NCBI GenBank assembly: GCA_009746045.1
Contig: RPFO01000165.1
Coordinates: forward strand, 3,302,641-3,366,640
DNA from: Mesostigma viride
Lineage: Eukaryota; Streptophyta; Mesostigmatophyceae; Mesostigmatales; Mesostigmataceae
DNA: 64,000 nt
Reading direction: 5' to 3'
Shown: piece after piece, positions 15,440 through 45,140 of the stretch
Position numbering within the stretch: the first letter of the stretch is position 1
Layout: every line of letters begins with the position of its first letter
Program-made: the position numbers and the translations under genes
The notes under the pieces: generated by a model
What the model was told of the DNA's origin: nothing
What the model saw: the letters and a program-made list of their open reading frames with translations, nothing else
Database searches by the model: none

Positions 15440-16892
15440 CTGTACTGCACCAGGTGCTCATGCAAGGGGCATGAAGGGATGATTGCTGGAAGGGCAAACC
15501 CGAACTTGGATCTGATGTGGATGTGTGCCCAGGTTGCTGGGAGCCCCGCCACCCGTTACCTGCAGGGGGACGCTGCAACAAGCCCAGGAAGGGAGCCTCA
15601 ACGGGGCGCCCCCAAACAAGCCAGCACTCAGGACGACTGTAAGTCTCCTGTACCCTGGTTTCTCAATGGCCGTGTACCTTCTATTTGCTCTGTGTTGCCT
15701 GACAGTGAGGAAGTGGACTGGGACCTGGCTTATGACATGACGTTAGCACAGGTGGCCCAAGATCCCACTATAGCCTCCTTAGACGCAGCAGCAGATAAGG
15801 TTATATCCTATGCCAGGTTAGCCCAACAGCTACACAAGGCAATGGGGCATGAGGCAGTGGCAGAAAGGCTGGCCAACAAAATTGATGGCCGTGACCTGGA
15901 ACAGATGTGCAGGCATGTCAGGAAGCACTGTGAAGCGTGCCAACTGCATGCACCTAAACCCAAGAGATGGCATGTGGCCACCCCACCACTGGCTAGAGGA
16001 AAGCTAGTAGGGGATGTGATACACGTGGTGAAGGACACGGTGTATTACTTGGTCCTAAAAGATGCCTGGTCTAGGTTTGTGGTGATAGAACCCTTGCCAG
16101 GCATGGCCAATGAACAACTGCACAGAGCCCTGCTGATTGCACTAGCACGGTATCATCCTCAGGAAAAATTAATGCTGGATCAGCAGTTCACGTGGATACA
16201 AGATTATCCTGATCTGCCCAAGATAGACATTGCTGGGGCTCAAGATCATGAACGCCAGGGGATGATTGAACGTACCATGCGTGCTATCAGGGACCTCATA
16301 AAGAAAAATGAGTCCAGGACAGCAGAGTCTGGGAGCTATGCTGATAGGACAGCGTGGGCAGCTGAGGTGTGCAGAACTCTGAACACCAAACCCCTCATGT
16401 CTTCTCCTTTTGGTGAAATCACATCAATTGGCCTGCAATCAGGTAGCTACTCTCAGGAGGTACTAGACCACTACAACACGCAAAGGCAACACTTGGCCAA
16501 GTTGCTGGCAAAAAAGGATAAAAGTAATGCCAGGCCTGTGTTTGAAGTGGGGGATCAGGTACTCTACTATAGGGAGGGGAAGGGAACAAAGCCCACTCTG
16601 GTAGATGGCATGGTCCAGCTGAAATCATCAGGTTGTCAGAAACAGGTGACACGGTGACTATTCAGCATCACAGAGAGCGAATGGTTGGCAAGCATAGACT
16701 GAAGCTTTATTACCCTCCTTTGGCAGACGTGTCAGGGGTAGAATTCTTGGACATGGATTCAGAGCCTCAGTCTGGTGGGTTGGTCTCACCCAGTGAACTG
16801 GCCAGGGACATAGCTGATGCAAGCAACACAACCATAGACGCTCCTGTGTTCCTCAGTGGTGCAGCCCCACCACAGCCCACTGGTCCACTGGG
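15440..16892 (+). pseudogene. Copia-1 pol, N-terminal part: zinc knuckle and integrase (frameshifted)
   Basis: A knuckle CTRCSCKGH begins at 15446, with a shift near 15475 in its second half. The integrase frame 15479-16600 is long and intact: LHKAMGH and HCEAC (HHCC-like), GDVIHVVKD, LMLDQQFT (about 16169) and DHERQGMIER (about 16255). The second Asp and the Glu are again 29 residues apart. Frame changes near 16585 and 16893 follow by comparison with Copia-3, where the same segments (EGTAVTIQ; VSKHRLKLYYPPLADVSG) are in one frame. Between the knuckle and the integrase there are only about 110 residues and no DTGA/DSGA-type protease site. Confidence 0.85.
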
Positions 16893-19168: not shown

Positions 19169-19507
19169 GAGGGTGGTCATGGGGTGGCAGGGTCTGAAGT
19201 GTCCCACCCGTAAGACTCTCTTTGCGTCATTAAAGATTGAGGTCAGAAGGGTCCTCCTTTATTGATGGCTTGTTCTTTGTCAATAAAACGTGTGGTCATT
19301 TTTTCTGACAATGGTTTTCCCAACACAGGCACCCAACCAGTGGGATGTTGTATCCAACACGGAGGAGCTATGGGCGCTTTTATAAATGCATCTCTTTCAG
19401 TGTCCTGGTTGTCCCTGTGGGGAACCTTGCTTATCAGTAGTGGTTGGCATCTGAGTGGGTTGTGGGAAGAGTCTTCCCCTCACTCCCCAAAGAAAAGTAA
19501 TAATGGG
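19169..19507 (+). other. Copia-1 3' untranslated region and polypurine tract
   Basis: Non-coding. It ends in AAAGAAAAGTAATAATGGG immediately before the LTR, the probable polypurine tract. The last bases (ATGGG|AGTT) are shared with Copia-2; Copia-3 has AAAGTGGG|AGTT. Confidence 0.7.
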
Positions 19508-20027
19508 AGTTATTCTAGGGCTTCAGGCCTAGACTATCAGTACACGTGGCGTTGTCCCCGTCTCCCAAGTGGGATACGGACATGGACGGTGGTGTAGTAC
19601 ACTGGACATATCTCTACTAGGTTTAGATCCGCACGTGCCATATTGGGCACGTGGGTGCTAGATATTAGCACTGAGATATGTAGGGCACACGCACGTGGGT
19701 ATTCACGTGGTAGGGTTTATGAGCTGTGATGCAGACCACAAGGTGGCTGCAGTGCTAGTCCTGTACGGAGGTCCTAGGGGAGGTCCAGGACCGTCCACGT
19801 AGTGCTGCTAGGCAGTCGTTGCCTGTGGGCATCGTATCAGTCCTAGCTGGAGTAGATCTAGCTGGACGGAGTCAGCACCTCATTGGTTAGCACTAGTGCA
19901 GGACAGCTAGGTTACCCTAACCTACGTGCCCATGCAATCCAGCTTGGCAAGCTTGCATGGATTGATATTATGCCAGCCATTGCATAATCCAACACACGTT
20001 CGCTTTCATTGCACAAGTGCATTAACT
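19508..20027 (+). repeat. Copia-1 3' LTR
   Basis: 520 bp, the partner of 1035-1555, missing one G. TSD CCGAC follows at 20028-20032. Confidence 0.93.
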
Positions 20028-26740: not shown

Positions 26741-26745
26741 GCGAG

Positions 26746-27121
26746 AGTTAGTCTAAGTCTCCCGCCTGTAGCCTAAGTGGACACGTGCCAGCACCGCCGG
26801 CGCCCAATTGGGTACTGGGACGGTGCTGGACTAGAGCAGTCGTGGCATGGACACGTGGCTGTACTCAGTATGTGATGAGCCGGTACCTCAGTACCGGGAC
26901 TGTAGTTGTCATGTTAGGACTGACTAGATCAGGTTGTAACTGATAGGCTAGTCCGTCCAGGATCAGTAAGTTAGTTTAACTTACGCAAAGTCTGGCCAGC
27001 CATCGTTGACGGCTGGCCAGCGGTATATGTGCCACATTATCCTAATGCCAAGGTGTCTCGTCGTTCACACACACGTCATTTGGCAGTGCCCAAGCATTCC
27101 AAGCTCAGTGTGTCCATAACT
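26746..27121 (+). repeat. Copia-3 5' LTR
   Basis: 376 bp. It contains GGTACCTCAGTACC (a near-palindrome that shares CCTCAGTACC with the Copia-2 LTR), CTGGCCAGCC...GGCTGGCCAG stems and CACGTG motifs. It is followed by GGCATTAAAAAACTCC, which resembles the post-LTR sequence of Copia-1. Confidence 0.93.
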
Positions 27122-27225
27122 GGCATTAAAAAACTCCGTAAACAATACACACGTGAGAAACGACGAGCGTTCACAGCGTTCATTTCGCGAAAACCCATTC
27201 CATTTTTACCTACTTTTTGTACCAA

Positions 27226-29609
27226 ATGGCTCCCAAGACTCCCAACAACAAGGGCAAGGCCCTGATGGGCGCGACTTCCTCGGAGGAGGAGTCGCCATCA
27301 GTGACGAAGTACCAGTCGTCTTCGTCGTCCCCTCTGTCTGATGACTCGGGGACGTCCGATTCTGACTTGGCGAGCCTGCGCCAGGAAATTCTGGACCGGC
27401 AGACCCGGGACGAGACGCACCCGGACGACATCGAGGAGGACGACCCGTCATACAGGGATGTCGTGCAGGAGGTGGTGCGCATTCCATTAATGCGTAGGGT
27501 GAGGGGTTCGACGCCGGTAGTGGCTCGTGCACCCCGGGGCCCGCCATATGCACCATGTGGTGCGGGTCCGGGTGTCACCTCCTCGGGGGAGCAGTCGGGC
27601 GGGGAGTCCGACTCGAGCTCTCTCGGGTTGTTCGGGATGCAGCCCTCATCGGCGGATGAGGCACGCTCGGCTCAGGTGGAGGCCGACGCGGCACTGGCAC
27701 GTCGCATGGCTGAGCAGGAGTCAGCTGAGGAGAGGAGGCTGGACGTGAGGTCACGTGAGCGGGCAGCTCAGATGGAGGATGCTGCGAGGGTCCAAGCGGC
27801 CCTGAGGAGGCCGGCCTTGCCGACCTACGAGGTGGTCAGGCGGGGCGACCTGGCCTGTTTTCAACGTCTTCGCAGGTCCGAGACCATCCCGCGGGAGATC
27901 GACGGGGTGCTACAAGAGTCAGAGTTTTCTCTGACGGGCCCGTCGGCTTCGGACGCTGACGACATGGTGGAGATGACTCCAGCTATGCAGGCGCGCGAGA
28001 AGGAGGCCAAGAGGAGGCTGGAGGTCTTCCAGGCGGAGAGGGCGAAGAAGCAGCGCAGGCGCGAGGCGATTGCGCAGAGGAAGCTGCGCGAGCAGCAAGA
28101 GCGCGACAGGGCGGAGGCGCTCGCGGCCAGGATTCGGGTGAAGATGTCTCACACCAAGGTGCGGTGTGAGCGTCTCACCCGCGACATGAAGTCCTGGAAA
28201 TACAGGAAGGTCGCCGAGTTGGCACCACTGCAGGGGCCGGCTCGTCGGGAAGCCGAGGAGCGCTACCGCAGGAAGCTGGCCATCTGGGAGGCCAGCGTAG
28301 GCCGACTGGAGAGGCGTATGCTGAAGCAGCGACGCCGTATGTCGAAGAACATCAAGAAGGCTGCGGTGAGGGGATGCATGGGGGAGGCGGTAAGAGCTGA
28401 ATTTGGTTTGATGCCGGATGAGCGCATTTCCACCGAGCAACTGTACCATTTCTTGTCGCAGCCCACGCATACCATTTCAAACCGAGACGGCACAGCGGCA
28501 AGGACCAGGGTGACGCACCGGGGCGAACCCGGTCCAGCGACCTTGTCGCACCGGGAGGACATCCGGAGGCAACTCCAACTGGCCCAGCAGATGCTGGACG
28601 AGGGGCGGGAGCTCACCCCGGCGGAGCATGGCCGCCTAGCAGACACGGTGGCGAGGCTGGTGGCCTCGCTGAAGCCAGCAAAGCGAAGGGCACCGGAGGA
28701 GGCGTGCCAGCCACAGCAGAAACGCAGGAGGGACGAGAGGGACGAGGGGGAGGATGACGGAGAGAGGGGGGGCAACCAGGGCGGGGGAGGACACGGCACC
28801 CAGGAGTCTGCACCAACACGGCACGAGGGCGGGGAGCGGCAGCAGCAGCAGCAGCAACAGCAACAGCAGCAGCAGCAGCAGCCACCACCAGCAGGAACGA
28901 CCACAACCTCCAACATGGCCTTGAATAGGCCCAGGTTTGATCCAAAAAAGAAAGAGGATAAGCTAGTGTTTCCGGGTTTGCCAGAGGGCCGTACCCAGGA
29001 CGAAGCTAGGGAGTGGTTGTTTAAGTTGTCACATGCATACGCTAGTGATAATGTCCGTGATTGGTTTGCATCCCTACGTGCGTCCACACCCATCCATCAA
29101 TCTGCCAAGCCTATCCAGCAGTTGGTACAATTGTACCAAAAGCGTGCCAGCAGCGGGGTAGACGTGGCAGAAAATGTGTTGTGGGCGCAGTTCATGGTTG
29201 ATCTTAGGGCACTTGTTACCACGGGGGAGCACTTAGAAGTGCTTAAGGGCTTCCAGTGGATAGAAGCGTATAAGGTCAATAAGCGTGACTATGTAAGTGA
29301 CAACAAAAAGTATGTCATGTACATAGAGGGGGATGAGGAGCTGAAGAAGCTCAATGCCAAGTACCTAGTACACCTATGGCTACAAAAGGCAGAACTGGAC
29401 CCTACCACCCTGTCAGTCATACTGGCAGGTCTGAAGGATAAGTGGGAGGATTTCAGGAAGGCAATGGCCTATGTGCAGCAATGCCTAGAGCCGTTTGCTG
29501 CTGCAGCCAAGGATGTAAAGGTGAAGCAGGTAAAGGGGGAGGAAGCCTCAGGTACGGGGCTCTCCAAGAAGCAGATGCAGTCGCTGGTAGCCCAGGTAAA
29601 GGCGGTAAT
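27226..29609 (+). CDS. Copia-3 gag (continuous with pol before the insert)
   Basis: The ATG is at 27226. The N-terminus is acidic/Ser-rich, followed by a Glu/Arg-rich coiled-coil region (about residues 140-400), a basic linker, a Gln tract encoded by CAG/CAA (28841-28882) and the conserved capsid-like core (LVFPGLPEGRTQDEAREWL; DNVRDWFASL; VNKRDYVSDNKKYVMYI; LNAKYLVHLWL; VILAGLKDKWEDF). The current stop (TAA after 29609) comes from the inserted retroposon. Without it, AQVKAV would run directly into MGGDKNKNNK of pol in the same frame, so this family makes a single Gag-Pol reading frame. Confidence 0.87.
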
Positions 29610-29941
29610 TAATTAATTAATTAATAGACACGTGACTGCGTCACGTGAGCATAAGTCCTCAGTGGGAGGGGAACATGGGATGGAATGGATGGTATAAGCT
29701 ATCTAGGTCCTAGTTACAGGGGTGTGGGCACCGCGGCCCGAATCGCTATGAATGCCATACTTGGTCACACGCGGAGCCCCCACAGGCTTGGGGGTGGTCT
29801 CCTTCATCACTACTTGCCATCTATCCTTGCGCACCATCTGCCTCCATATTACAGACAAACCAGGAGGCTGCCCGGGGGTGAGCCCGTCACGTCTAGTGTA
29901 GCACATGTCCATGCCGAGTCTATCACGAAAAGTCCACGGGA
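29610..29941 (-). mobile_element. 332-bp retroposon fragment with (TTAA)n tail at the gag-pol junction
   Basis: The direct repeat GGCGGTAAT at 29601-29609 and 29942-29950 is a 9-bp TSD. On the minus strand the insert begins at 29941 in an open frame of about 79 codons (GLSVIWRQMVRKDRWQVV, VTKYGIHSDSGRGA) that stops at 29703. A 3' untranslated segment with a CACGTGAC/GTCACGTG hairpin follows, then a (TAAT)n tail at 29610-29626. It looks like a 5'-truncated LINE-type element. The encoded family is not recognised. It breaks Copia-3 gag-pol by adding 341 bases and stop codons. Confidence 0.72.
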
Positions 29942-29948
29942 GGCGGTA

Positions 29949-32900
29949 ATGGGGGGGGATAAAAACAAAAACAACAAAAGTGGGGGAGGTGGAAACAAGG
30001 GGGGGGGAAAGAACAATAACAATAAAAACAGAAAACAAAGTGGGGGAGCTAGCAAGCCAGGGGGCGCTAAGCCAGCAGGGGGGGACAAGAGGTTGCCTCA
30101 TGACCCCACCAAACATTGCACTAGGTGCCTTTGTAAGGGGCACCTCAAAGATGATTGCTGGAAGGGCAAACCCGACTATGGTTCTGACGTTGATGTTTGT
30201 CCTGGATGCTGGAAAACACGTCACCCCATTGCAGCAGGAGCGCGCTGCACGGCTCCCAGGCACAACAAGAACACGCCAGGGCGCTACAACCGCGCGGGGG
30301 CGGCAGACCAGGGAGACTCCTGTAAGCTACCCTCACCATTTTTCACAAATGGTTTCCTGTTACCTTCTGTCTGCCAAGTGTTGCCTGAGTGTGATGATGT
30401 GGATTGGGAAGTGGCATATGACATGACACTGTCACACATGATGCGTGACCCCACCATAGCTTCCCTTAGTGCAGCAGCAGAAAAGGTAATCACGTATGGT
30501 GCTCTAGCAGAGCAACTGCACAAGGTTATGGGCCATGAGGCTGTGGCTGAAAGGCTAGCCAATAAAATACAAGGCCATGATCTGGAACAGATGTGCAGGC
30601 ACGTACGTAAGCACTGTGAGCAATGTCAGCTATATGCTCCTAAGCCCAGAAAATGGCATGTGGCCACACCACCACTGGCTAGAGGCAAACTGGTTGGGGA
30701 TGTTATACACGTGGTGAAGGACACGGTATACTACCTAGTCATAAAGGATGCCTGGTCAAGGTTTGTGGTAGTGGAGCCCCTGCCTGGGATGGATAAAGAG
30801 CAGCTGCACAGAGCTTTACAGATAGCCTTGGCACGTTTTCACCCCATTGAAAAAGTAATGCTGGATCAGCAGTTTCTCTGCATCCAGGACAGGAATGACC
30901 TGCCCAAGATAGAAGTGTCTGGGGCTCAAGATCATGAACGTCAGGGGTTGGTAGAACGTACCATGAGAGCCATCAGGGATGTGATAAGAAAAATGCCATC
31001 CAGGTTGGCTGACTCTGGTAGCTATGCTGACAGGGCATCTTGGGCAGCAGGGGTGACTACCCAGCTAAACGCCAAACCAATAATGTCCTCACCTTTTGGG
31101 GAAATCACCCCAACTGGCCTTCAGTCAGGCAGCTATGCTTCAGAGGTACACACTCACTACAACACACAAAGGCAGCACTTAGCCAAGTTGCTGGCAAAGA
31201 AAGACAAAAATAATGCCAGGCCTGTGTTTGAAGTGGGGGACCATGTGTTGTTTTTCAGAGAGGGTGACAGAGGAAGAGCACACTCTGCCAGATGGCACGG
31301 TCCAGCTGTAGTCACCAAAATTCATGAAGAAGGGACTGCAGTCACTATACAACATGACAGAGAGCGTGTGGTCAGCAAGCATAGACTCAAGCTTTATTAC
31401 CCACCACTGGCAGACGTGTCAGGGGTAGAATTCTTGGACATGGATTCAGAGCAGGAGTCTGGTGGATTGATCTCACCCAATGAATTGGCTAAGGACGTCA
31501 TTGATGCAAGCACTAGTACCACAGTAGAAGCTCCTGTGTTCCTCAGTAGTGCAGCCCCACTACAACCCAATAGTCCACCTGGGCAGGAGGACGGTGCACA
31601 GGGTGAGCAGCAGGTAGCACCTCCCTCACACCTGGAGGAGTCACAAAATAGAGCAGATCCTGTCGTTCCCAGGAAGTCATTTGCTGAGATTCTTAAGGCC
31701 TTGCACAAGGCACACAACACTAAAGCAGTTGTGGCAACAGGTACAGCACAAGTCAATGCTGTAGGGGATGCAGGTCAAGATCCTAGTATTTTGGCTGTAG
31801 ACACCCAAGCACAGGTGAGTATCATCAGTGCAGCAGCTGTATCTGGTCTGAAAATGAAGGCCTCACCATGGGCTAGAGTGTCAGATTTTTCAGGCAAAAC
31901 CAAAATGCAGGTCAAAGGTCAGGTGAGCATTCAAATCTTGGGTATGCCCACTCCATTTCAGGTGGTTGAGGGTTACTCAGGGAATGCCCTGTTAGGGGAA
32001 CCTTTTGTATCTTACCCTGGTGTTGTCATCTCAGCTGGGAGGTTGAGTGTGGCAGGGGTAGGACAGGTGCCTCTAGATCATTTTAAAATCCCTTTGAGCC
32101 AGATTAGCACTGGGTTGGATGCTGCCATCAATGCAGTTAAGCCCAAGTACCTCCCAGGTCAGGAACCGTGTGTGGAGGACCTCATACACTCTCAAAAGCT
32201 ACACCCTTCAGCGTTTGGGCTTGGTAGATGGGATGTTGCATCCATGTCTCCCCTGTCCTATGATGATATTGTACGGGACTGCCAGACGCAGATTGGGTTT
32301 CTTAAGTGGCTGGAGGCTTTTACCAAAGCCAGGGAGGAGTGGGTTGTTCCAGATGCACGTAGTCCCACACACACACCACCTGTGACTCCTCTTGATGCTA
32401 TGCCAGCTGGAGCCAAGAAGCTAAGGTTAAAGTTTGTGTGCAAGCATAAACCTCAGGCTGATGGGGGACCACCCATTTTCCATGCTAGGCCATGTGTTAC
32501 TGAGTTCAGGGGCTCTACAGAGCTGACAGAGGCTGAGCTTTATACTCCTGGTATTCAGCAAACGTCTCTCAAGGTGTTGCTTTCCTTGTTTTTGCATCAG
32601 CTTAATACAGGGAAGGATTATGTGTGTAAAGCCACAGATATCAAAAGAGCCTTTCTAAAGGGGGACCCTGCCATAGCACAGCAGGTCTGGAGAGGTCAGG
32701 TATACGTGGTGAATACTCCTAAGGTGTGGCACAGGGATATTGTTCAACCCTTGTTGAGGCCAAACCTGGGGGTTGAAGGGTTGCAGTCAGCTCCAAAAAT
32801 TTTTAGGCTGTCTGCACAGGAGGTATTCATGAAGCTAGGGGCCACCTATGATGACATTGACCCTTGCTGTTTGTCATCCCACACCCTGATGGAATGATGA

Positions 32901-33826
32901 TGTTTGTCTGGCATGGGGATGATCAGTTAATCTCAGGTCCTAGAGCTGCAGTGGATGCTTTCATAGCTCAGGTGTCTGCCAGTTTTGAGATTGGCAAGCA
33001 GCTAGAGCTGGGCAAGGAGCCAGTCAAGTTCTGTGGCATGATGCTTGAGTTGCTGCAGCAGCAGGGCAGCTGGGTTTGTTCCATGCAGGCCTCTGCTGAA
33101 TACATTAAGTCTTGTCTGGATGTCCTGCCTGTTCACATCACCCCTGACATGTGCCCTACCATTAGAGGCAAGCTTGGTTGGCTATGTGCTACATGTGCAC
33201 CCCACCTGGCTTTTGTGAGCAGGGTAGATGATGAGGTACTACAGGAGGTAGGAGCACGGGCAATCAAGCAGTTGTTGCATGATGGTCCACCTTTGATGCT
33301 TCACTCACTGGACCTGTTTACTCCCATTCACATCACGTGCATGATGGATAGTTCAATGGAGTCCAGGGTAGTTACCAAGGTTCAAGCCAGAGAGGCTGGA
33401 TTGTTTTTCCTGCATAACCAAGGTGGGAAGAAGTCACTAGTCTCCTGGTTCAGTAGATTGCACAAGAGGAAAGCTGTGAGTAGCAATGTAGCTGAATGCA
33501 GGGCTGTGGTATCTTCTGTCTTGCATGCAAGGTATCTCAATCACTTGCTGGTCTGGCTTCAACACCAGGCTGGTAGCTCTGCAGGAGTGAAAGCACATTT
33601 GCTGACTGACTCTCAATCTATCATCTCTTTCCTTGCCAATCCTTTGGCTGTACACTCGGACCTGGATTGGATTGTGCTAAAACAGGAATGCAAGTACCTG
33701 GAGTCTAAAGCCCACGTCAGGGACAAAGACAATGCTGCAGATGCACTGACCAAGGTGCCACAAGCAGCAGGACCACAATACCAGGTCTTGTATGGGTTGA
33801 TGAACCCTGGTTACAGTCTGAAGTGA
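29949..33826 (+). CDS. Copia-3 pol: zinc knuckle, integrase, retropepsin-like, RT, RNase H
   Basis: From MGGDKNKNNK (29949) a basic Asn/Gly/Lys stretch leads to CTRCLCKGHLKDDC (CX2CX4HX4C, about 30118). The integrase follows (LHKVMGH, HCEQC; GDVIHVVKD; VMLDQQF; DHERQGLVER, with 29 residues between Asp and Glu) and its tail (GDHVLFFREGD; RWHGPAVV). Then come AVDTQAQVSIIS (about 31795) with ALLGEPF, and RT with KATDIKRAFLKG, GVEGLQSAPKIF and VWHGDDQLISG (HGDD at 32912-32923). RNase H has MMDSSMESR, NVAECRAVV, LLTDSQS and DKDNAADALTK, ending at 33826. A single deleted base near 32868 splits RT just ahead of the catalytic box. The protease-like domain lies after the integrase. Confidence 0.9.
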
Positions 33827-34210
33827 CTGGCACATTGTACATGTTAGCCCATGACCCCCTGCCTAATACTGCAGCTGAAAGGCTGCAGTGGCAGCTGGGT
33901 AGTTTTCTGACAGTGAGAAGCACTGGTCTAGAAAGTTGGGACATGATGAATGTGTTATTTATTGAATAAAATTTTGTGAGACACTTGTTTGGATGACCAT
34001 GACATGCTGGGGCCTGGAGCACCCATCTCACTCAGTTAAGAAACCATGCTTGAGACATGGGGCCTTTTTAATGCATCTCTTGTACATGTGTGAGGTGACC
34101 TTTGGGTCCTAGTAGGTTATCTGACAGTTTTTTTAAGGCATTGGGAATGGCTGCGTCCATTTGATGGCTATGCGTGTTTCTGTTGAAACCCAAAGAAAAC
34201 TTAAAGTGGG
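33827..34210 (+). other. Copia-3 3' untranslated region
   Basis: Non-coding; AATAAAATTTTG near 33965 is a possible polyadenylation signal. It ends in AACTTAAAGTGGG, a short purine tract, directly before the LTR. Confidence 0.65.
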
Positions 34211-34586
34211 AGTTAGTCTAAGTCTCCCGCCTGTAGCCTAAGTGGACACGTGCCAGCACCGCCGGCGCCCAATTGGGTACTGGGACGGTGCTGGACTAGA
34301 GCAGTCGTGGCATGGACACGTGGCTGTACTCAGTATGTGATGAGCCGGTACCTCAGTACCGGGACTGTAGTTGTCATGTTAGGACTGACTAGATCAGGTT
34401 GTAACTGATAGGCTAGTCCGTCCAGGATCAGTAAGTTAGTTTAACTTACGCAAAGTCTGGCCAGCCATCGTTGACGGCTGGCCAGCGGTATATGTGCCAC
34501 ATTATCCTAATGCCAAGGTGTCTCGTCGTTCACACACACGTCATTTGGCAGTGCCCAAGCATTCCAAGCTCAGTGTGTCCATAACT
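34211..34586 (+). repeat. Copia-3 3' LTR
   Basis: 376 bp, reading identically to the 5' copy; followed by TSD GCGAG. Confidence 0.93.
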
Positions 34587-34650
34587 GCGAGTACGACGCA
34601 TTGCAACCGCTTCCAAGATTTAGTTAGGGGCTTTCGCTCTGACAGGGCTG

Positions 34651-35559
34651 TTGCCCATGCGACGTCTTCTCATGGCTGATTGGGTCGGAAATAGTTGCCA
34701 TGTCGATGCCGCTTGGCATCTTTTCTATGATAGCGTGGCCTTAACACTTCTAGTTGGCACGCTCGTGTTATTAGATTTTCTGCAGTGCAATTGCCTGAAT
34801 AGCAGGCATAGAGCCTCGTGTGCCATCGGTGTGCGCATTGTTGACTACATCCATGCGCATGCTTTTGGCAATGTTTCTGACATGAACGCTGCGAGGTACC
34901 TCTTACGTACACCATTAGATGCCACGGCGGACCGCGCTCACCTTGCGGTTGGAGACCCGCGCCATAATCTATACCATTTCATGCAGCGATTCAAGTATGC
35001 GCGATTGCGCCAAGGCGATGTCACGTGCCGCCAACCTTTTGGTACTGACGGAGAACTAGTGCACCCAATATCCATAGCGTCGCAATTGGGTGAACACGTA
35101 GATATCAAAGAACGCATGATCATAGCGTGTACACGCCGGCCCAACCACGCCCCTTGTCCATATAACTGTGGCAGCGTCGGTTGCACACCTTTGCGTTACT
35201 TTGATGACGTGCCCCGTGTGCTGGTGTTTGGGAATGTACATGGCAATACCCCTTTGCCTGTTCGTAATTACGCCGGTGAAGGGCTACCGACCACCTTCCG
35301 GATGTCCATCTGGGTGGGTCGCGCTTGCCGGCCGGTCACAATCGTAGCACCCTTGTACGGGGTTCTTGAGCATCGTCCCAACCACTTTGTGTATCTCCGT
35401 AGGTTTCATGGTGATGATGATTGGGAAGAGGTTGACCCCTACAAGGCGCTTACCCACCCCAACCATCCCAAACAATATCCATATGGTCAGAGAATGGACC
35501 TAGTGAGCTTGGCAAAGAGCACAGTGGCATGCTTGTACCGCGTGACGATTGATGAGTGA
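34651..35559 (+). CDS. Second C19/USP-like cysteine protease domain of the Helitron
   Basis: This frame has about 300 codons. A Cys box ADWVGNSCHVDAAWHLFY lies near 34675-34728 and a His box NHFVYLRRFHG...WEEVDP near 35380-35445, with Cys-rich HAPCPYNCGSVGC between (about 35150). The spacing fits a C19/USP-like fold with all boxes in one frame, so this copy is intact. The first domain's frame runs into the same region and stops at 34679, overlapping this start in another frame. One fused polyprotein with a frameshift and two separate ORFs are both possible. In a Helitron a protease or deubiquitinase could process the Rep-helicase or protect element proteins; this is inference. Confidence 0.65.
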   Translation: MPMRRLLMADWVGNSCHVDAAWHLFYDSVALTLLVGTLVLLDFLQCNCLNSRHRASCAIGVRIVDYIHAHAFGNVSDMNAARYLLRTPLDATADRAHLAVGDPRHNLYHFMQRFKYARLRQGDVTCRQPFGTDGELVHPISIASQLGEHVDIKERMIIACTRRPNHAPCPYNCGSVGCTPLRYFDDVPRVLVFGNVHGNTPLPVRNYAGEGLPTTFRMSIWVGRACRPVTIVAPLYGVLEHRPNHFVYLRRFHGDDDWEEVDPYKALTHPNHPKQYPYGQRMDLVSLAKSTVACLYRVTIDE

Positions 35560-35600
35560 TACTTGTATATATTTATATTTATATTTATACTGTATATATA

Positions 35601-38002
35601 TTGGTCATTGCCCTCCTGAAAGACGACGTCCCCCCGCCTGCTGGCCGCGTTCGTCCCATTGCTTGCGGCGAGGTCCTACGCAAGCTGGTGAGTAAGGTCA
35701 TTTGTCGCCAAAAGGCCCCCGAGTTTCGCGCCTACTTCTGCCCCAACCGGAGTGATACTGAGGAGTCCGTCGCGGCCCAGCTTGGCGTCGCCACCAAAGG
35801 GGGCAGCGACATCATCGTGCACACAGTTCAGGCCTACCTCGAGACGCATCCGACCCATGTGGCGCTGAAGGTGGATTGCCACAATGCGTTCAATGCTGTC
35901 ACCAAGGCTAGCATCTTTGAGGCCGTCGGCGAGGCGTTCCCTGACCTTCTTGCGTGGACAGCAGCCTGCTACGGCGAACCCACTCAACTCTCCTTCCTCA
36001 TGGAGGATGGGACGTTCGCCGACATCGCTTCCCGCACGGGAACCCAGCAAGGTGACCCCCTCGGCCCCTTTTACCTGTCTGCCCCGCTGCACAAGGCTCT
36101 CCAAGGTGTCCACGCTGCGCACCCGGATGTCGTGCTCCTCGCCTATATGGACGATATCCATGCCCTTGGCCCGGCCGACGCTGTGGTTGCCGCCCTGGCT
36201 GCCCTTGAAGTGGCCATGGCGGCCATCAACCTTCGGCTCACCCTCCCCAAGTGTGCAGTCTTTTCGCCCCAGGGGGACTGCTCTGGCTTCCCCGCGGCTA
36301 TCCCGGGGGCATTGGCGCGGGCGCGTGGTTTCTCGTGCCTGGGCGTCCCTGTGGGTGACCCTGACTACGTCGAAGAGGAGCTCCGGGCCACCGTGGAACA
36401 GCGCACCCATGTCCTCGAGACTTGGGCGCGCCTCAAGGACCCCCAGACCAAAGGGCTCCTCCTGTGGTTTTGCGCCCACCCGCGGGTGGTTCACTGGCTC
36501 CGTGGCGCTCCCCCCCACTTGGTGCGGCTTGCCGCGGAAGGCCATGACGAGCGCATTCAGGCCGCCTTGCAGGTGCTCCTCCCCGGCCCTAGCCTGCCAG
36601 CTCACTCCATGCGCTTGGCCACCCTCCCCTGCCGCATGGGCGGGTGTGGGCTCACCCGCGCCGCCCGCCTCGCCCCCGCCGCCTTCCTTGGCTCTGTTGC
36701 TCAGGCCTGGGCGGAGATCCGCCGGTTGGTCCCCAGCGCCGTCAGCGCCATTCCCGACTTGGTCACCCCATCCCCCTTCCCCTTTGTGCAGGCTGTGCAG
36801 GATTCTTACCTCGGGATCCAGCAGGCTTGCGACCTCGTCCGCCCCGCTCAGGCCGTCCACCGTCGCCTGCCCCGGGGCACGCCCGGCGTGTCCACTGTCG
36901 TCAGTCCTAGTGTCTTCCCTGCCTGCGTTCATGAAAAACAACAAAAGACCTACGCGGGTATACTACACTGTGCCGACTGGATGGGTCTGCATGCGAGCTT
37001 GAACGATCAGGGGAAGGCTTGGCTTCACTCCGTTTCCCTTGAGGGGAGCGTGGGGTCCGCATTCCTGCGCGCCCTCCCCATGAGCCCTTTGTTCACACTG
37101 GTTCCGGCCCTTTACGCCATCGCTCTCCGCCACCAGCTCTTTGCCCCGCAACCTCTCATCACGGCGGGTGCGTCCTGCGGCAGCTGCGGGCTTGCTCTGG
37201 ATACTACTGGGACGCACTACATCGCGTGCATGGGTGGCCAGCAGAACCAGAACTGGTTCCTCTATCTCCATACCGCTCTCCTCCGGGTGGTGTGTGCCAT
37301 GGTTCGGTCGGTCTTTCCCCACTCCACCATCAAGTGCGAGGACGCGGATGGGGCCGCCCTCTACTCACCCAACCATCGCCCCGACATTACCGTGCTTGAC
37401 TACGACGGGCAGGGTTGCCACCTGCTCATCGATGTCTCCGTGGCTCGGCCGCTTTCCGGTCGCCACATCCTCCGGGCGGCTGTGGATGCCGGCGCTGCTG
37501 CCGCTGTGGCTGAGCGCGACAAGTTTGCCTCCTACGGCAATGTGGGGCCCCACCGGGTCATCCCCTTTGTCCTTGAGGAGTTCGGGGCCATGGGCCCCAA
37601 GACAGCGGAGTTTTTCCACGAGTGCTGCCAGCGCCGTGAAGACCGCCTCGACCTCGAGGGTCAGACCGCCCCGTGGTCGGCCCGCACGTGGTCCTCGTAT
37701 TGGCGGCAGCGTCTGTCACTCGCCCTCACTCGCACCGTGGCTGATGTGTTATTCCGCCGCACCCGGGCCGACTTTGTCGCGACCCATGCGGTCTAGATCC
37801 CTTCCAGGCCTGCATGGTGGGCCGGCAGCGCTGTTGCTGCGTGTAGTTTTGTGATGTATAGTTAGTTGTACCTTGTGCCGCTGGCGTGATCCTTGGATGT
37901 CTGTGTCAGATTACTATTAATTTCTTCAGGGTTATTCTCCCAGTTATCGGGTTTTTCCTTATGTTGCATGCCTATCTCACCTCCGTAATCTATCATTCTC
38001 AA
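35601..38002 (+). mobile_element. LINE-A, 5'-truncated REL-type non-LTR retrotransposon
   Basis: The element is truncated at its 5' end inside the RT domain and ends in a 3' UTR finishing ATCATTCTCAATGAATATA. The flanking direct repeat TATATATTGG (about 35591-35600 and 38003-38012) is a TSD in TA-rich DNA. A second, shorter copy lies inverted at 45141-46881. The insertion sits just after the stop of the second Helitron protease ORF. Confidence 0.85.
35620..37796 (+). CDS. LINE-A reverse transcriptase and restriction-like endonuclease
   Basis: The open frame begins within RT (GRVRPIACGEVLRKL), with VDCHNAFNAV, GTQQGDPLGP and the catalytic AYMDDI (36144). A thumb and linker follow, then the CCHC motif CGSCGLALDTTGTHYIAC (about 37177-37230) and a PD-(D/E)xK endonuclease (NHRPDITVLD; HLLIDVSVARPL). 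This is the layout of REL-type LINEs (R2, R4, NeSL and relatives), which nick a specific target. The stop is at 37796. The frame is undamaged downstream of the truncation, so insertion is young. Confidence 0.9.
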
Positions 38003-38020
38003 TGAATATATATTGGCCCC

Positions 38021-38870
38021 ACGGCAGGCGGTACCACCACTCCGTGGCAGCTTGGCCCAGTTTGCTACCGGCTGGCACACGTTTTCAGTGAATTTTGGGC
38101 TCCAGATTTAAATGCAACGTGCGGTTTGAGGCAGGGGAAAACATGCGTGGACGATAGGAATTATAGCACCGGCGGGCTTCAAAGTGCCGGACGGCAGGCG
38201 GTACCACCACTCCGTGGCAGCTTGGCCCAGTTTGCTACCGGCTGGCACACGTTTTCAGTGAATTTTGGGCTCCAGATTTAAATGCAACGTGCGGTTTGAG
38301 GCAGGGGAAAACATGCGTGGACGATAGGAATTATAGCACCGGCGGGCTTCAAAGTGCCGGACGGCAGGCGGTACCACCACTCCGTGGCAGCTTGGCCCAG
38401 TTTGCTACCGGCTGGCACACGTTTTCAGTGAATTTTGGGCTCCAGATTTAAATGCAACGTGCGGTTTGAGGCAGGGGAAAACATGCGTGGACGATAGGAA
38501 TTATAGCACCGGCGGGCTTCAAAGTGCCGGACGGCAGGCGGTACCACCACTCCGTGGCAGCTTGGCCCAGTTTGCTACCGGCTGGCACACGTTTTCAGTG
38601 AATTTTGGGCTCCAGATTTAAATGCAACGTGCGGTTTGAGGCAGGGGAAGACATGCGTGGACGATAGGAATTATAGCACCGGCGGGCTTCAAAGTGCCGG
38701 ACGGCAGGCGGTACCACCACTCCGTGGCAGCTTGGCCCAGTTTGCTACCGGCTGGCACACGTTTTCAGTGAATTTTGGGCTCCAGATTTAAATGCAACGT
38801 GCGGTTTGACGCAGGGGAAAACATGCGTGGACGATAGGAATTATAGCACCGGCGGGCTTCAAAGTGCCGG
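38021..38870 (+). repeat. Five 170-bp monomers at the 5' end of LINE-B
   Basis: The units start ACGGCAGGCGGTACC at 38021, 38191, 38361, 38531 and 38701, so the period is exactly 170 bp. Copies are almost identical (one A/G near 38650, one G/C near 38810). The array lies between the left TSD of LINE-B and its ORF, so it is probably the element's tandem 5' promoter, as in mouse L1 monomers. Each unit holds GATTTAAATGC and a CACTCCGTGGCAG stem. Confidence 0.85.
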
Positions 38871-38978
38871 ACCGCAGCGCGTTGGGGGCTGCCGCCCCCC
38901 AAACCCCCGCGTGGGGGCTCCGCCCCCCACACCCCCCCGCCCCCCCCTCGGTGGCTGCCACGCCTGCCCTGATTGTTC

Positions 38979-39400
38979 ATGGACGACCCACGACCCCCTT
39001 CGCCCAACGGCTCCCCCACTCCCCGGTTGGCACCTCGGCGGGCCTCTCGGCTTTCGGCCCTTCTTGCGGATGTGGGCGACCCGGCTGCGGGGGGCTCGGG
39101 CGCCCCGGTCTCCCCCTCCTTGGTCTGCGAGGTCTGCCGGAGTGGGCACCGCGGGCACCACATGTTAGTTTGTGATGCTTGCAATTCCGGGTGGCACTTG
39201 CAGTGTCTTACTCCCCGGCTCTACCGGGTCCCGCCAGGCTCCTGGACGTGCCCGCGCTGTCCCCCCCCGCGGGCCCCCGGGCTGCCCTCCCCGCCGGGTG
39301 CTCCGGCCCCCTGCCCCGTGCGCCCCCCTGCCGAGGCCCTCGGGGCGGGCCGTGGCCTGCCCGATGGGGCCGCCGTTGCTCGGGCCCAGCTGGCGCCCTC
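38979..39400 (+). CDS. LINE-B ORF, N-terminal part with PHD finger
   Basis: The ATG is at 38979. After a Pro/Arg-rich leader, a C4HC3 PHD finger occupies about residues 50-95: CEVC, CDACNSGWH, C and CPRC with PPGSW before the last pair. PHD fingers bind histone H3 tails, so this could steer the integration complex to chromatin. A Pro-rich linker follows. The ORF is split at 39400 by the foldback insert (TSD CCCTC) and continues at 40275. Confidence 0.85.
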
Positions 39401-40269
39401 AGTTACGTTAAATAGTGTCGGAACCTTTTGCCGCCTGAGGCAAATCGGGCCGGAACACTATTTTGCCCGGAATAACCACTTCCGAGCACCCAAGTTAATT
39501 CGGCCGAATTAACTTGGGTGCTCGGAAGTGGTTATTCCGGGCAAAATAGTGTGACGGCCCGATTTGCCTCAGGCGGCAAAAGGTTCCGACACTATTTAAC
39601 GTAACTAAAACCTGGCCTCGTGGAGGGGGACGAAGAGCCCGAGACATCCGCCTAGGCCGCTGAGCACGCACCACTAAATGCGCCGGAGCTGTCCGGATTC
39701 GAACCCCTGACCTCCAAGGTGCACAGGTTTTAGTTACGTTAAATAGTGCCGGAACCTTTTGCCGCCTGAGGCAAATCGGGCCGGAACACTATTTTGCCCG
39801 GAATAACCACTTCCGAGCACCCAAGTTAATTCGGCCGAATTAACTTGGGTGCTCGGAAGTGGTTATTCCGGGCAAAATAGTGTGACGGACCGATTTGCCT
39901 CAGGCGGCAAAAGGTTCCGGCACTATTTAACGTAACTAAAACCTGTGCACCTTGGAGGTCAGGGGTTCGAATCCGGACAGCTCCGGCGCATTTAGTGGTG
40001 CGTGCTCAGCGGCCTAGGCGGATGTCTCGGGCTCTTCGTCCCCCCTCCACGAGGCCAGGTTTTAGTTACGTTAAATAGTGCCGGAACCTTTTGCCGCCTG
40101 AGGCAAATCGGGCCGTCACACTATTTTGCCCGGAATAACCACTTCCGAGCACCCAAGTTAATTCGGCCGAATTAACTTGGGTGCTCGGAAGTGGTTATTC
40201 CGGGCAAAATAGTGTGACGGCCCGATTTGCCTCAGGCGGCAAAAGGTTCCGGCACTATTTAACGTAACT
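39401..40269. mobile_element. Composite foldback element: three 206-bp palindromes with inverted spacers
   Basis: Three copies (39401-39606, 39732-39937, 40064-40269) of a near-perfect 206-bp palindrome with ends AGTTACG...CGTAACT and centre AATTCGGCCGAATT. They are separated by two spacers (39607-39731 and 39938-40063) that are reverse complements of each other, so the whole 869 bp is one giant palindrome. TSD CCCTC occurs at 39396-39400 and 40270-40274. The spacer contains an exact GGTTCGAATCC (tRNA B-box-like). No coding capacity. The termini AGTTA/TAACT and the 5-bp TSD match the Copia-like LTR elements here. Confidence 0.9.
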
Positions 40270-40274
40270 CCCTC

Positions 40275-41800
40275 GGCCCCGGGGCCCCACCCGTCGCCTG
40301 GCCCCGCCGACGGGGGCGCGGCGCTGCCGCTGGCCGACCCCCGGCGGGCCTGGCGACCCCGGCCCGCCCCCGGCCCCTCGCTCCCCGACGCTCTGGCCTC
40401 CCTTCCCCCGGCCGCGGTTGGCCACCCAGCCGCCACCCCCGTCCTTGCCGCGTGGGACGGCGGCCCCCGGGCCCACGCGTTCACCTCGTGGCCGCCCTCG
40501 CACATTGTCGGCGTGGTGGGCCGCGCCACCTTTTCTTGGGCGTACTGCCCTTTGTTGCTGGACGCGGTCGGGTTGCAGGCCGCCTTCCCCTCGCTCCCTA
40601 GGCCCCCGGCCTTCCTGGCCCTAGTTGCGCGGTGCGGGCGACATTTCTTTCCGCCGCCCCCCGGTGACGGCCTCGACTCTTTGGGGGTATGTCTTGGAAG
40701 GATATCACGCCGGCTGCCGGCTGCCGTGGCATCTCCCGGCCGCCCGGCAGGAAGAGCTGCTTTCCCTGGACGAGCGGGTGGGTCAGGAGGTGGTCGAGTT
40801 CGTCACGGCGGTGGCTCGAGACGCACAGGTCTCGGTGCGGGCGGCCTACCTCGCGGGCGGCGCCGACCTGGGCCTCATGTCCCCGCGGCAGCTTCGCCTC
40901 TTCTTGGACGCCCAGGCCCCGCCTCCCGGCCCGGTTGCCAGTGGGGGCTTTCTCATCACCTCCCTCAGCCTGGCGCAGGCCGCCATGCTGCGTGTGGAGT
41001 TCGGGGCCCCCATCGCGGTTCAGGGCGGCCAGGCCATCTTGGTGGACTCGGCCGGGCGCGCCCAGCCCCTAACCGCGGGGACGCCTGTTTCTGCCTTCCT
41101 CCACGACATCCTGGAGTTGGCAGGCATCCCGCACGAATGGCACCCCGCGGCTGACCAACCGGTCGGCATCCTCTCGCGCGCCCAGATTGCTGCTCTCCCG
41201 GGTTGCTGGGAGGCCGGCTGGGACCCGCCCCCCCTCATGTCCGGTCCCTTCTGGAGGGGGACGACCCCGAGTCGGGCTCCTGTGCCATCTGCCTTGAGCC
41301 CTTCCGGCCGGGGGATGGCTTGTGTCGCCTGCCCGCGTGCGGCCACACATTCCATCAAGCGTGCATCGCGCGCAGCTTGCTCCACTCCGTGCCGCGCTGC
41401 CCGTTGTGCCGGGCTGTTGTGCCGCCCCCTGGGACTGCGCTTCCTCTCGGCCCGCCCCCGGTCTCGCTGGGTCCCCTGCCGGGTCCCCACCGGGCCCCGG
41501 GGCCAGCTGCCTCCCCGACCCCTCGGCCGCCGCCCCCGGCCTCGTTGCCGGGGCCTGGGGTGGTCGCGGGCGCGCTGGCGAGTCCCCCTGGGAGGGGCGC
41601 CGGCGTTCTCGATCCCCCTCCGCTGGGGGTCTCCCCGGTGGGCACTGCCTCCTCCGTGGCCCCGGCGGGCTGCCGGGCGCTGGTCGGGTCGTGGTGCGCG
41701 CGCCTGCCGGCCCGGCTGGGGAGACGCCGCAGGCCCCACGTCCTGCCTTTGCTGGCGCCGCTCCCCGCCACTCAGCGCCCGCCGACGGCCTTCACCGGTG
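40275..41800 (+). pseudogene. LINE-B ORF, middle part with RING-H2 finger (frameshifted)
   Basis: This resumes after the foldback insert. A region starting HIVGVVGRATFSWAYCPLLL (about 40504) has no match I recognise. It changes frame near 40690 and continues as LEGYHAGCRLPWHLPAARQE ... LLSLDERVGQEVVEFV to about 41260. A second frame change leads to a C3H2C3 RING-H2 finger at about 41275-41410: CAIC, CGHTFHQAC and CPLCR. RING-H2 domains act as ubiquitin E3 ligases. A long Pro-rich linker follows. Frame changes lie beside C or G runs and may be sequencing indels. Confidence 0.78.
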
Positions 41801-43460
41801 TGCCGTGCTGCTTCCCACGGGGTCCCCGTGTGCTGGTGTGTTCCACAACCGTAACCTCCTCTGCCAGCACCTTCGCGCTGTGCACCCCGATCTCGGCGCG
41901 GCGGATCTGCAGGCCATGAGCTGTTACCGGTGCCCGGAAGCTCACTGCCAGCGGGTGTACTCCATTCACGGGCGCGCTCAGCACGCGCGCGCCTGTGTTG
42001 CTCAACGGCCCCTCAACCGGCCAGCAGTCCCGGCCCCCTCCCCCCCTCCCGCCTCGGCTCCCACCGGCTCCCAGCCCCCGCCGCCCGACTACTCGGCCAG
42101 TTGGCGTTGGCTTGACACGGTTCCCTGGGATGCATGCGCCATCAACCCGACGTCTACCCTGACCGACCTCCCCCACCGCGCGCGTAGCCTTTTCGCGCAA
42201 TGTGCAATCGTTTCTCTCCGGCGCATGCACGCCGCTCCGGACGACCCGCTGGGCTTTAAACTGCACATGGTGACCCCCCGCCTGCTCCTCACCCCTCTCG
42301 GGCGTGGTGTGCGCGGCCTCCAGGGTGCGGTTATTGCCCGTTGCCGACGCTTTCTGCAGGGGGACTGGGAGGGGCTGTTTGGCGTGCCGCCCCCGCGCAC
42401 GGCCCGGCTGTCGGGGGAGGTCAACTTCGAGCGGGTGGCCGCCGACGTCATCCGCCTCGTCCGCGAGGGGCAGCTCAGCCGGGCCATGACCCGCTTGGAA
42501 ATGGCCAAGCTGGCCCCCGCCAATGCGGCTACCCTGGCGGCCTTGGAGGCTCTTCACCCTGCGGAGCCCGGATTCCAGCTGCCCGTGCCGGACCCCCTGC
42601 CGGCCCCCCTCCGGCTGGACCGCGACTGCTTCCTGGAGGTGATGCGTGCGGTCCCGCGGGCTTCCTCTACCGGGCCGTCGGGCTGGCGCTACGAGCACTT
42701 GGAGGTCCTGGTGGGGCATGGGGGCGAGGACATTCTCTTTGACACCCTCATTGACCTGGCGGCTGGTCGCGTTCCTCCCGCTGCGCGCGAGTGGTTAGCG
42801 GGCGCTCGCCTCCTCGCTCTGCTCAAGGGTGTCTTGCCCCCCCCGAGGGCAAGGTGCGCCCGATCGCCTGCGGTGAGGTGCTCCGCAAGCTCGTGGGCAA
42901 AGTGATCTGCCGCCAAAAGGCGCCCGAGCTCCGTGCCTTTTTCTGCCCGCCCCTCGCAGCGGGTGAGACCTCGGTGGCGGCCCAGCTGGGGGTGACGACT
43001 CCAGGCGGGGCGGATATCCTCATCCATTCGGTGCAGGCCTACCTCGAGGCCCACCCCACCCACGCTGTCGTCAAGGTCGACTGCCACAACGCGTTCAACA
43101 GTCTGTCCCGCGCCAGCATGTTTGCGGCCGTCATGGAGTCCTTCGAGGACTTGTACGCTTGGACAGCCGTGTGCTACGGCCAGCCCGGCCAACTGGTTCA
43201 CATCATGGAGGACGGCACTCGCGGCGGCCTGCTGTCGCGGTCGGGCACCCAGCAAGGGGACCCCCTGGGACCCCTGTACTTTGCCGCCCCCCTCCAGGGT
43301 TGCCTCCAAGCGGTCCATGCTGCCCACCCGGCGGTCGCTATTCAGGCCTACTTGGATGATATCTACCTTCTGGGCCCTGTGCCGGACACCACCGCGGCTC
43401 TGCTGGCACTGCAGACCGCGGTGGCCGACATCAACCTCCAGTTGACCCTGCCAAGTGCGC
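41800..43460 (+). pseudogene. LINE-B ORF: C2H2-like fingers and reverse transcriptase (frameshifted)
   Basis: Two C2H2-like fingers (CAGVFHNRNLLCQHLRAVH and YRCPEAHCQRVYSIHGRAQH, about 41830-41990) precede RT, as in R2/NeSL proteins, where such fingers bind target DNA. The pre-RT segment contains STGPSGWRYEHLEVLVGHG. RT then follows in the next frame (shift at the C8 run near 42840): GKVRPIACGEVLRKL, VDCHNAFNSL, GTQQGDPLGP and AYLDDI (43346-43363). A missing G near 43449 shifts the frame again; fragment 58621-60826 has the full base there. Confidence 0.85.
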
Positions 43461-45000
43461 GGTGTACTCGCCCCAAGGTGATTGCTCCGGCTTTCCGCCC
43501 CAGCTCTTGGGCCGGGACGAGCGCCTCCATGGGTTGGATGTCCTCGGCGTTCCGGTTGGCGACCCCGCGTTTGTCATCGATGCTCTGCGGGCCGCCCTCG
43601 AGGCACGCACTGAGGTACTGCCCTTGATTGCGCGCCTTCATGATTCGCAGACCAAGGGTCTGCTTCTGTGGTTTTGCGCTCACCCTCGCGTCGTTCACTG
43701 GCTCCGGGGCGCTCTTCCGGCTCAGGTCCGGCTGGCCGCCGAGGGCCACGACGAACGCATCCAGTCGGCCTTGGCGCAGCTGGTCCCGGGCCCCGACCTC
43801 CCGCCACATGCTATTCGCATTGCCTCCCTGCCTGCACGGATGGGTGGCTGCGGTCTGACTCGTGCCGCCCGGCTGGCCCCAGCAGCATTTTTGGGCTCCG
43901 TCGCTCAGTCGTGGGCGGAAAGCTGCCGGCTCCTGCCCCTTTTGGCAACGGCAGCGCCTGACCTCCTGGACCCCAGCAGCCCTTTGCCCTTCGTCACCGC
44001 CATCCAGGAGGCCTATGCTGAGATCCAGCAGGCCTGTTCTCCCGTCCGTGCCGCTCAGGCGGTACAGCGCCACCTCCCTCGCGGCACTCCCTCGGTCGCC
44101 TCCGTTCAATCTCCCGCCGCATTCCCTGCTCGCGTCATCGATAAACACCAGAAAACCTACGCGGGTATTCTGCACACGGCTGATTGGATTGCTCTTTTCG
44201 CGGACCTCAACGCCCAGGGACGTGCGTGGCTGTTCTCGCTTTCCTTGCGGAGTGTGGGCTCGGCGTACCTTCGTGCTCTTCCCATGGCCCCCCCATTCGC
44301 CTTGGCTCCCAGCCACTACTCGGTGGCGCTCCGGCACCAGCTATTTGCCCCGCAGCCTCTTGTTCCGGCCGGGCGGCCTTGTGGTAGCTGTGGGCAGCCG
44401 CTGGATCCCACGGGGACTCACTACCTTGCCTGCATGGGGGGCCAACAGAATCAGAATTGGTATTTGTATTTGCACACTGTCCTCCTGACGGTGGTGCTCG
44501 CCATGATTCGGTCGGTTTTCCCCCACGCGAACATCCGGTCCGAGGATGCGGATGGCGCTGCCTTCTATTCCCCCAACCACCGGCCTGACATCGTGGTGCT
44601 GGACTTTGAGGGGGGTGGCCGGCATCTGCTTATTGACGTTTCGGTGGCGCGGCCCTTGGCTCTTAGCCACGTGGCTGGGGCCTCCCTCACGGCAGGTTAC
44701 ACGGCGGACCGGGCGGAGCGGGCCAAGCTCCTGGCCTACGGCGACGTCGGGCACCATCGTGTGGTGCCCTTTGTCCTGGAGGAGTTTGGGGCCATGGGGC
44801 CCCTGACCTCCGCCTTCTTCAAGGAGTGTTGCCGGCTCCGGGAGGACCGGCTGGACCTGGAGGGCCAGCGGGCCCCATGGTCGGCGCGGACCTGGACGTC
44901 ATATTGGCGTCAGCGCTTGTCGGTGGCGCTGACTCGGGCCATGGCTGACATCATGCTCCGCCGTACGCGGGCTGATTTTGCGGTGCAGCAGGGCTATTAG
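43450..45000 (+). CDS. LINE-B ORF, C-terminal part: RT thumb, CCHC and REL endonuclease
   Basis: From YSPQGDCSGF an intact frame runs to the stop at 45000. It carries the RT thumb region (GLLLWFCAHPRVVHWLRGAL), CGSCGQPLDPTGTHYLAC (CCHC knuckle, about 44381-44434) and the PD-(D/E)xK nuclease core NHRPDIVVLD...LLIDVSVARPL (about 44575-44660). It is similar throughout to LINE-A, a sister family. A 3' UTR of about 130 bp follows, ending in GTAAGTAATTATATTATT. Confidence 0.88.
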   Translation, partial: AKCAVYSPQGDCSGFPPQLLGRDERLHGLDVLGVPVGDPAFVIDALRAALEARTEVLPLIARLHDSQTKGLLLWFCAHPRVVHWLRGALPAQVRLAAEGHDERIQSALAQLVPGPDLPPHAIRIASLPARMGGCGLTRAARLAPAAFLGSVAQSWAESCRLLPLLATAAPDLLDPSSPLPFVTAIQEAYAEIQQACSPVRAAQAVQRHLPRGTPSVASVQSPAAFPARVIDKHQKTYAGILHTADWIALFADLNAQGRAWLFSLSLRSVGSAYLRALPMAPPFALAPSHYSVALRHQLFAPQPLVPAGRPCGSCGQPLDPTGTHYLACMGGQQNQNWYLYLHTVLLTVVLAMIRSVFPHANIRSEDADGAAFYSPNHRPDIVVLDFEGGGRHLLIDVSVARPLALSHVAGASLTAGYTADRAERAKLLAYGDVGHHRVVPFVLEEFGAMGPLTSAFFKECCRLREDRLDLEGQRAPWSARTWTSYWRQRLSVALTRAMADIMLRRTRADFAVQQGY

Positions 45001-45140
45001 GTTCCTCCCGTTAGGCGTTTCCATTGGTCTTATCGTAGTATAGAGCTTTGACATGGCTCTGTATATAGGTTTATAGCTGGGCGTTTGCTTTGGTTTGAGT
45101 GATTTCACTCTGCTGTAAGTAATTATATTATTATAATATA

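Follow-up and report, generated by a model that had tools for sequence, protein, structure and literature searches.

The position of integrase (IN) relative to protease (PR) and reverse transcriptase (RT) is among the chief characters by which retroelements with long terminal repeats (LTRs) are sorted. For the Ty1/Copia elements, the passages of a 2009 survey drawn on here place int downstream of pr in all genomes then known, describe the IN position as constant, and report an LLS motif in Copia proteases, an ILG motif that predominates in other proteases, and the absence of the GPY/F module from Copia integrases (PMC2774666). The cited part of the 2021 profile of the International Committee on Taxonomy of Viruses lists PR, INT and RT-RH (PMC8515867). 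The present finding concerns three LTR elements in a window of 64,000 nucleotides from the Mesostigma viride genome (contig RPFO01000165.1, forward-strand positions 3,302,641 to 3,366,640). The elements are Copia-1 (window positions 26746-34586, plus strand), Copia-2 (1035-20027, plus strand) and Copia-3 (2921-14153, minus strand, nested in Copia-2). They are probably retrotransposons with a Copia-type RT in which pol runs from a nucleocapsid zinc knuckle through IN, PR and RT to RNase H; the PR has a DTQA active site and probably a retropepsin fold, and no Copia-type protease was found between the knuckle and IN. The lineage is abundant, and a PR placed after IN with this odd active site was not found described in the literature searched. 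No IN-PR-RT order occurred in the titles and abstract openings of the matches listed, and no DTQA in the 15 listed of 282 matches to one search, a scope outside which subscription papers and Repbase entries lay.

Motif positions on both strands of the window place the knuckle, IN, a VDTQA..ALLG domain, RT and RNase H in an identical order in the three elements, which confirms the arrangement proposed in an earlier note on this DNA. The Copia-1 gag frame (27157-29616, stop to stop) ends inside a 331-bp insert and is followed by a C-X2-C-X4-H-X4-C knuckle at 30117-30158 (CTRC at 30117), identified by motif and translation. IN extends from 30516 to approximately 31419 and consists of a zinc-binding N-terminal part, a DDE core (GDV, LDQQF, QGLVE) and a C-terminal GPA stretch; the motif run LHK..HC..GDV..LDQQF..HERQG..GPA covers 30516-31307. 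The retropepsin-like domain is located at 31773-32084, with VDTQA at 31797-31811 and ALLG at 31986-31997. The N-terminal part of RT starts near 32300 and stops at a frame break at 32897 (CKATD at 32625), and the C-terminal part continues with RNase H in another frame at 32861-33826 (WHGDD at 32909, TDSQS at 33605, NAADALTK at 33731). Copia-2 has its knuckle and IN at 15320-16657 (knuckle at 15446, IN motifs at 15830-16261), the PR-like domain and RT at 16818-18485 (VDTQA at 17106, ALLG at 17295, CKATD at 17934, WHGDD at 18219), and the RNase H part at 18410-19168 (TDSQS at 18914, NAADALTK at 19040). On the minus strand, Copia-3 carries the knuckle and IN at 9514-11199 (knuckle at 10863, IN motifs at 10497-9712) and the PR-like domain, RT and RNase H at 4454-6874 (VDTQA at 6491-6505, ALLG at 6316, CKATD at 5680, WHGDD at 5395, TDSQS at 4699, NAADALTK at 4573).

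The same order recurs across the genome. The assembly (440 Mb in 2,243 contigs) was searched, and 99 of 6,499 first-look candidates were scored for Copia-1 and 96 of 6,750 for Copia-3. Of the 46 loci examined, 42 were from the Copia-1 and Copia-3 families, with L007 and L009 being the window's own copies. DTQA was present in 46/46 loci, all of them retrieved by PR-RT queries that contain DTQA or border on it. IN was in frame upstream of DTQA in at least 40 of the 46, and IN, RT and RNase H were all in the DTQA frame in at least 25; these are lower bounds because 38 of the loci were cut about 1,500 bases to each side of the match. Five of the eight longer loci carry the IN, PR, RT and RNase H motifs in a single open frame of 1,265-1,506 residues, and in copy L040 no stop interrupts the frame from gag through the knuckle, IN and PR to RT. 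A fourth family (L041, L044 and L046), which shares 80% identity with Copia-3 across the query, agrees in order. An assembly error or a single rearranged copy might be suspected from the broken and nested window copies, but the order common to four families and 40/46 loci on many contigs refutes this explanation, whose probability is practically nil, and upholds the earlier claim that the order does not stem from a rearranged copy. The internal control was a canonical Copia element of the same host, in which one frame contains, in order, a knuckle (recognized by eye), a protease matching Pol_BBD (1.8e-14), a match to gag_pre-integrase under the cut-off (0.0026), and then IN and RT. One Copia-3-like pol (L042, G000:C335:446000-453500) has approximately 600 residues, mostly (GQ)n, in frame before the knuckle.

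The domain between IN and RT was compared with retropepsins. The Pfam family gag-asp_proteas was the best match in 4/4 PR segments (E = 0.011, 0.071, 0.032 and 0.012), all below the cut-off. When slices of gag and pol were scanned with a retropepsin profile, the scores were 18.4-20.8 for the slices holding DTQA, 16.3 for the best slice outside the domain (in IN), and 14.6 for the best of 209 reversed slices. The retropepsin alignment spans the whole domain, about 90 columns, with DTxA, LLG and the C-terminal strand in register, and the hydrophobic-hydrophobic-Gly motif (ILG type) of clan AA is present as an invariant LLG. The ratio of nonsynonymous to synonymous substitution rates is 0.07-0.14 for PR, 0.07-0.14 for RT and 0.31-0.79 for the IN-PR linker, and these values show the PR domain to be under selection. 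A structural model of PR built on a 28-row alignment had a predicted local distance difference test (pLDDT) score of 81.6, and retropepsins accounted for all 50 matches listed in each of two fold searches with this model.

Several results weigh against the retropepsin assignment. The good model is partly circular because 25 bacterial retropepsins stand in its alignment. The model from the window's three sequences alone had a pLDDT of 41.7 and found no match at E 0.001 in the fold search. Profile-profile comparison of the whole domain with retropepsins gave E = 0.032 and a probability of 1.6% (controls 0.45 and 0.48), the reciprocal HMMER search for PR was near noise (best E = 0.13), the DTQA domain was not among the top matches of a retropepsin hidden Markov model run forward, and PDB sequence searches with the new PR sequences alone returned no retropepsin. 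The profile that included the 25 bacterial proteins matched 31 PDB sequences, with the Rickettsia ApRick protease and Ddi1 at the top; these matches follow from the bacterial proteins and confirm the identity of those proteins only. The earlier description of the DTQA segment as retropepsin-like thus stands on Pfam, the slice scores and the register, and is weakened by the sequence statistics and by a model that leans on retropepsin rows. The structural check it called for gave a retropepsin fold with retropepsins in the alignment and no match without them. Weak statistics and a poor stand-alone model would also be expected of some other small beta domain that carries the motif by chance. This is very unlikely in view of the register of the motif, the LLG spacing and the C-terminal strand, the aspartyl protease as best Pfam match in every segment, and the slice controls. 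Separately, a retropepsin gene (L068, G000:C2011:489701-489949) was found on a 1.49-Mb contig. It is 82% identical to metagenome protein P0001, and P0008, at 64% identity, is labelled Rickettsiaceae; the contig is possibly that of a bacterial symbiont in the assembly.

The active site also counts against a conventional protease. The clan AA motif D-[ST]-G is replaced by DTQ in 46/46 loci, with Gln and not Gly as the third residue. The Gln codon is CAA in every locus, and the neighbouring codons vary silently. On sequence grounds the DTQA domain may be either a variant that still works or a pseudo-protease that has been conserved. A pseudo-protease would be a retropepsin by descent that does not cut and is kept for folding, dimerisation or the spacing of IN and RT, with processing by a host protease or none needed. 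The exchange of Gly for Gln throughout and the failure to find another protease in the element favor this alternative. It is nevertheless unlikely, since the active site retains its Asp and Thr, the loop AVDTQAQVSIISA shows no variation between families with ~60-66% of the domain as a whole in common, and the canonical Copia of the host itself deviates from DSG, having DSAAS with Ala at the glycine position. A DTQA protease that cuts is the preferred reading.

A canonical protease upstream of IN, named in the earlier note as the sign that would speak against a domain order of this kind, was not detected by Pfam, pairwise or motif searches. A motif scan of the knuckle-IN linker bore out its statement that DTGA/DSGA is missing there, and no conserved D[ST]G[AS] occurs in gag or the linker. 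No Pfam family matched gag or the linker (none up to E 1 for Copia-1 gag), and Pol_BBD was not listed by Pfam for any protein of the new elements. The retropepsin profile was rejected as a test for a canonical upstream protease, since it scored the canonical control at 12.2, under the reversed maximum of 14.6; because of this blindness to Copia-type PR, the pairwise test and Pfam were used instead. In the pairwise test, gag and linker had no similarity to the canonical host Copia protease (z = -1.2 to 1.3). Linker identity between Copia-1 and Copia-3 is only 18%, unlike that of an enzyme. Loose matches to D[ST][GAQ][ASC] besides the PR site were DSGS in IN in 4/4 pol frames, DSQS in RNase H in 3/4 (the fourth frame is cut short), and one DTQA in the gag of Copia-3. 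The last, at residue 40 of the L039 frame, was rejected as an upstream protease on its gag position and its absence from Copia-1 gag. DSGS was rejected because it lies within IN, about 26 residues behind HERQG in 4/4 pol frames. A canonical protease too diverged to be recognized could still hide upstream, with the DTQA domain as a second or unrelated one, given that gag and linker are fast-evolving and without a Pfam family and that the profile would miss a Copia-type PR. The pairwise z scores, the lack of Pol_BBD and of a conserved site, and the low linker identity make this very improbable, and the DTQA domain remains the favored PR.

The RT of these elements is of Copia type by profile and pairwise comparison. 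Scores against RVT_2 (cut-off 31.6 bits) were 38.4 bits for Copia-3 (1.3e-9), 41.6 for the fourth family and 35.1 for Copia-2. An open Copia-1 copy scored 30.9 bits, just under the cut-off, and Pfam gave no RVT_2 match for the frame-broken window copy. Among the Pfam matches listed for the new elements up to E 1 or 5, there was none to RVT_1. The canonical Copia elements of the host score ~148-178 bits among 150 scored matches, and the new RT is therefore far from the usual ones. It matched the canonical host Copia RT with a profile E of 1.9e-5 over 161 columns, and pairwise comparison with one canonical host Copia gave z = 15.3 and 11.9 (0/300 shuffles each). RNase H gave z = 5.5 (0/300 shuffles) and 3.4 (1/300) in the same kind of comparison, and its profile comparison with the host canonical Copia found nothing. 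The corresponding IN values of z = 4.9 (1/300 shuffles) and 2.8 (4/300) are compatible with a Copia or other IN, and the IN profile scores against the canonical host Copia were within the range of reversed slices. The rve match of IN had E = 6.9e-6 and 26.7 bits, under the cut-off of 32.6. The IN residues are conserved in six sequences, and four copies have a stretch F.xGD.VLF..GPA..HR.K.Y at the IN end. This tail was compared with the consensus of the GPY/F module, which its GPA stretch resembles by eye. This GPY/F-like tail, the Gln of the active site and the contrast of LLG with the Copia LLS are features on which the earlier note does not comment. Profile searches gave no match to GPY/F in the IN tail, and PDB sequence searches with the IN and IN-tail alignments gave no useful match.

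The LTR termini of the three elements are AGTT..AACT, not TG..CA. The Copia-1 LTRs at 26746-27121 (5′) and 34211-34586 (3′) are 100% identical over 378 aligned bases, which include one common flanking base per end, and the 5-bp duplication GCGAG stands at 26741-26745 and directly after the element at 34587-34591. The Copia-2 LTRs (5′ 1035-1555, 3′ 19508-20027) are 99.8% identical with the 5-bp duplication CCGAC, and those of Copia-3 (2921-3383 and 13691-14153, ends approximate) are 99.8% identical. Judged by these identities of 99.8-100%, a Copia-type lineage inserted recently in the window. The stretch behind the 5′ LTR is unlike among the three elements.

The window copies of Copia-1 and Copia-3 are damaged, but this damage did not create the domain order. 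The 331-bp insert in Copia-1 (29610-29940) is located between gag and pol and is flanked by the 10-base repeat AGGCGGTAAT (29600-29609 and 29941-29950). It is private to the window copy among the copies compared, being absent from L040, L043 and L045, and no second copy occurs in the window or the fetched loci. AGGCGGTAAT is doubled around the stretch and single in those three copies, which fits an insertion; a spliced intron was rejected on the single-copy state. The RT frame of Copia-1 breaks near 32861-32897. The match runs through query residue 422 in 13 of the 99 scored Copia-1 copies, and 10 of these span residues 1-422. These 13 copies, at separate loci, have the break in common, and a broken subfamily may have spread with proteins from other copies. 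In Copia-3 a 2.7-kb LTR-like element at 6842-9535, missing from L039, separates IN from PR. A second window copy of this element (52903-55618) is 98.8% identical, and both have LTR-like ends of ~616 bp. Elsewhere in the window, tandem repeats of 170 bp and clustered direct and inverted repeats of ~214 bp occupy 38016-38995 and 39401-40277, and related long frames, non-LTR RT-like by eye with some inverted copies, are found at 35556-37796, 41298-45000, 45136-46881 and 58508-60697.

The order, the frames, the conserved IN and RT residues, the selection on PR, the LTRs, the duplications and the recent insertion are legible in the DNA itself, and a life cycle may be proposed. The element would be transcribed from LTR to LTR, gag-pol would be translated as one frame (open in L040), and gag would package the RNA. 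PR would dimerise and presumably cut the polyprotein, including its own borders with IN and RT, to mature the particle. RT and RNase H would then make the DNA, and IN would insert it with 5-bp duplications. The IN-PR-RT-RNase H order is a circular permutation of the Gypsy/BEL order PR-RT-RNase H-IN. The most likely history is that the Copia protease was lost and a retropepsin gained before RT, or that IN moved ahead of PR. A more tentative proposal, rather doubtful at present, is that these elements branch off separately, at the base of Copia or close to it, with IN before PR, a Copia-type RT joined to a Gypsy-like DTQ retropepsin, and possibly a GPY/F IN. If true, such a branch would be a further solution for the placement of IN and would merit a rank of its own next to Pseudoviridae.

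Scans for relatives beyond this genome were negative. None of 7,994 protein database candidates sharing most words with Copia-1 PR-RT scored at E 0.001, and none of 6,672 for Copia-3 PR-RT at E 1. Viral contigs scanned with the PR-RT alignment and a canonical Copia RT, and bacterial and archaeal genome contigs, contained no relatives in scans built on a handful of short peptide patterns. The lineage, abundant and recently inserted, departs from the rule for IN and shows that pol domains changed places more often than the usual classification provides for, and it may supply an intermediate relating the Copia and Gypsy orders. It is also a natural source of a retropepsin-like domain that lacks the glycine of the active site, and the activity of this domain is directly testable.

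The predicted PR fold is that of Ddi1 and the bacterial TIGR02281 retropepsin-like proteases, but those are cellular, lie outside pol and have a DTG active site. Gmr1-like Gypsy elements also have IN moved upstream of RT, but according to the passages cited they belong to Ty3/Gypsy and have IN downstream of PR (PMC2774666). With Metaviridae (Ty3/Gypsy) the new elements share a retropepsin directly before RT, an LLG-type motif and possibly a GPY/F-like IN tail. They differ in having IN before PR, where Ty3/Gypsy has it at the end, downstream of RNase H, and in an RT of RVT_2 type, for which no match to RVT_1 was listed. The likeness to Pseudoviridae (Ty1/Copia) lies in an RVT_2-type RT followed by RNase H, IN upstream of RT, a CCHC knuckle, 5-bp duplications and a possible single gag-pol frame. 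Set against the Pseudoviridae as the cited passages portray them, PR follows IN instead of preceding it, has LLG in place of the Copia LLS, and does not belong to the Pol_BBD type, and the GPA stretch of IN resembles a GPY/F module that Copia integrases lack (PMC2774666); the DTQA active site and the AGTT..AACT LTR ends are further differences. The RT is thus of the Pseudoviridae type and the order and protease are not, and the elements are accordingly not filed as ordinary members of that family.

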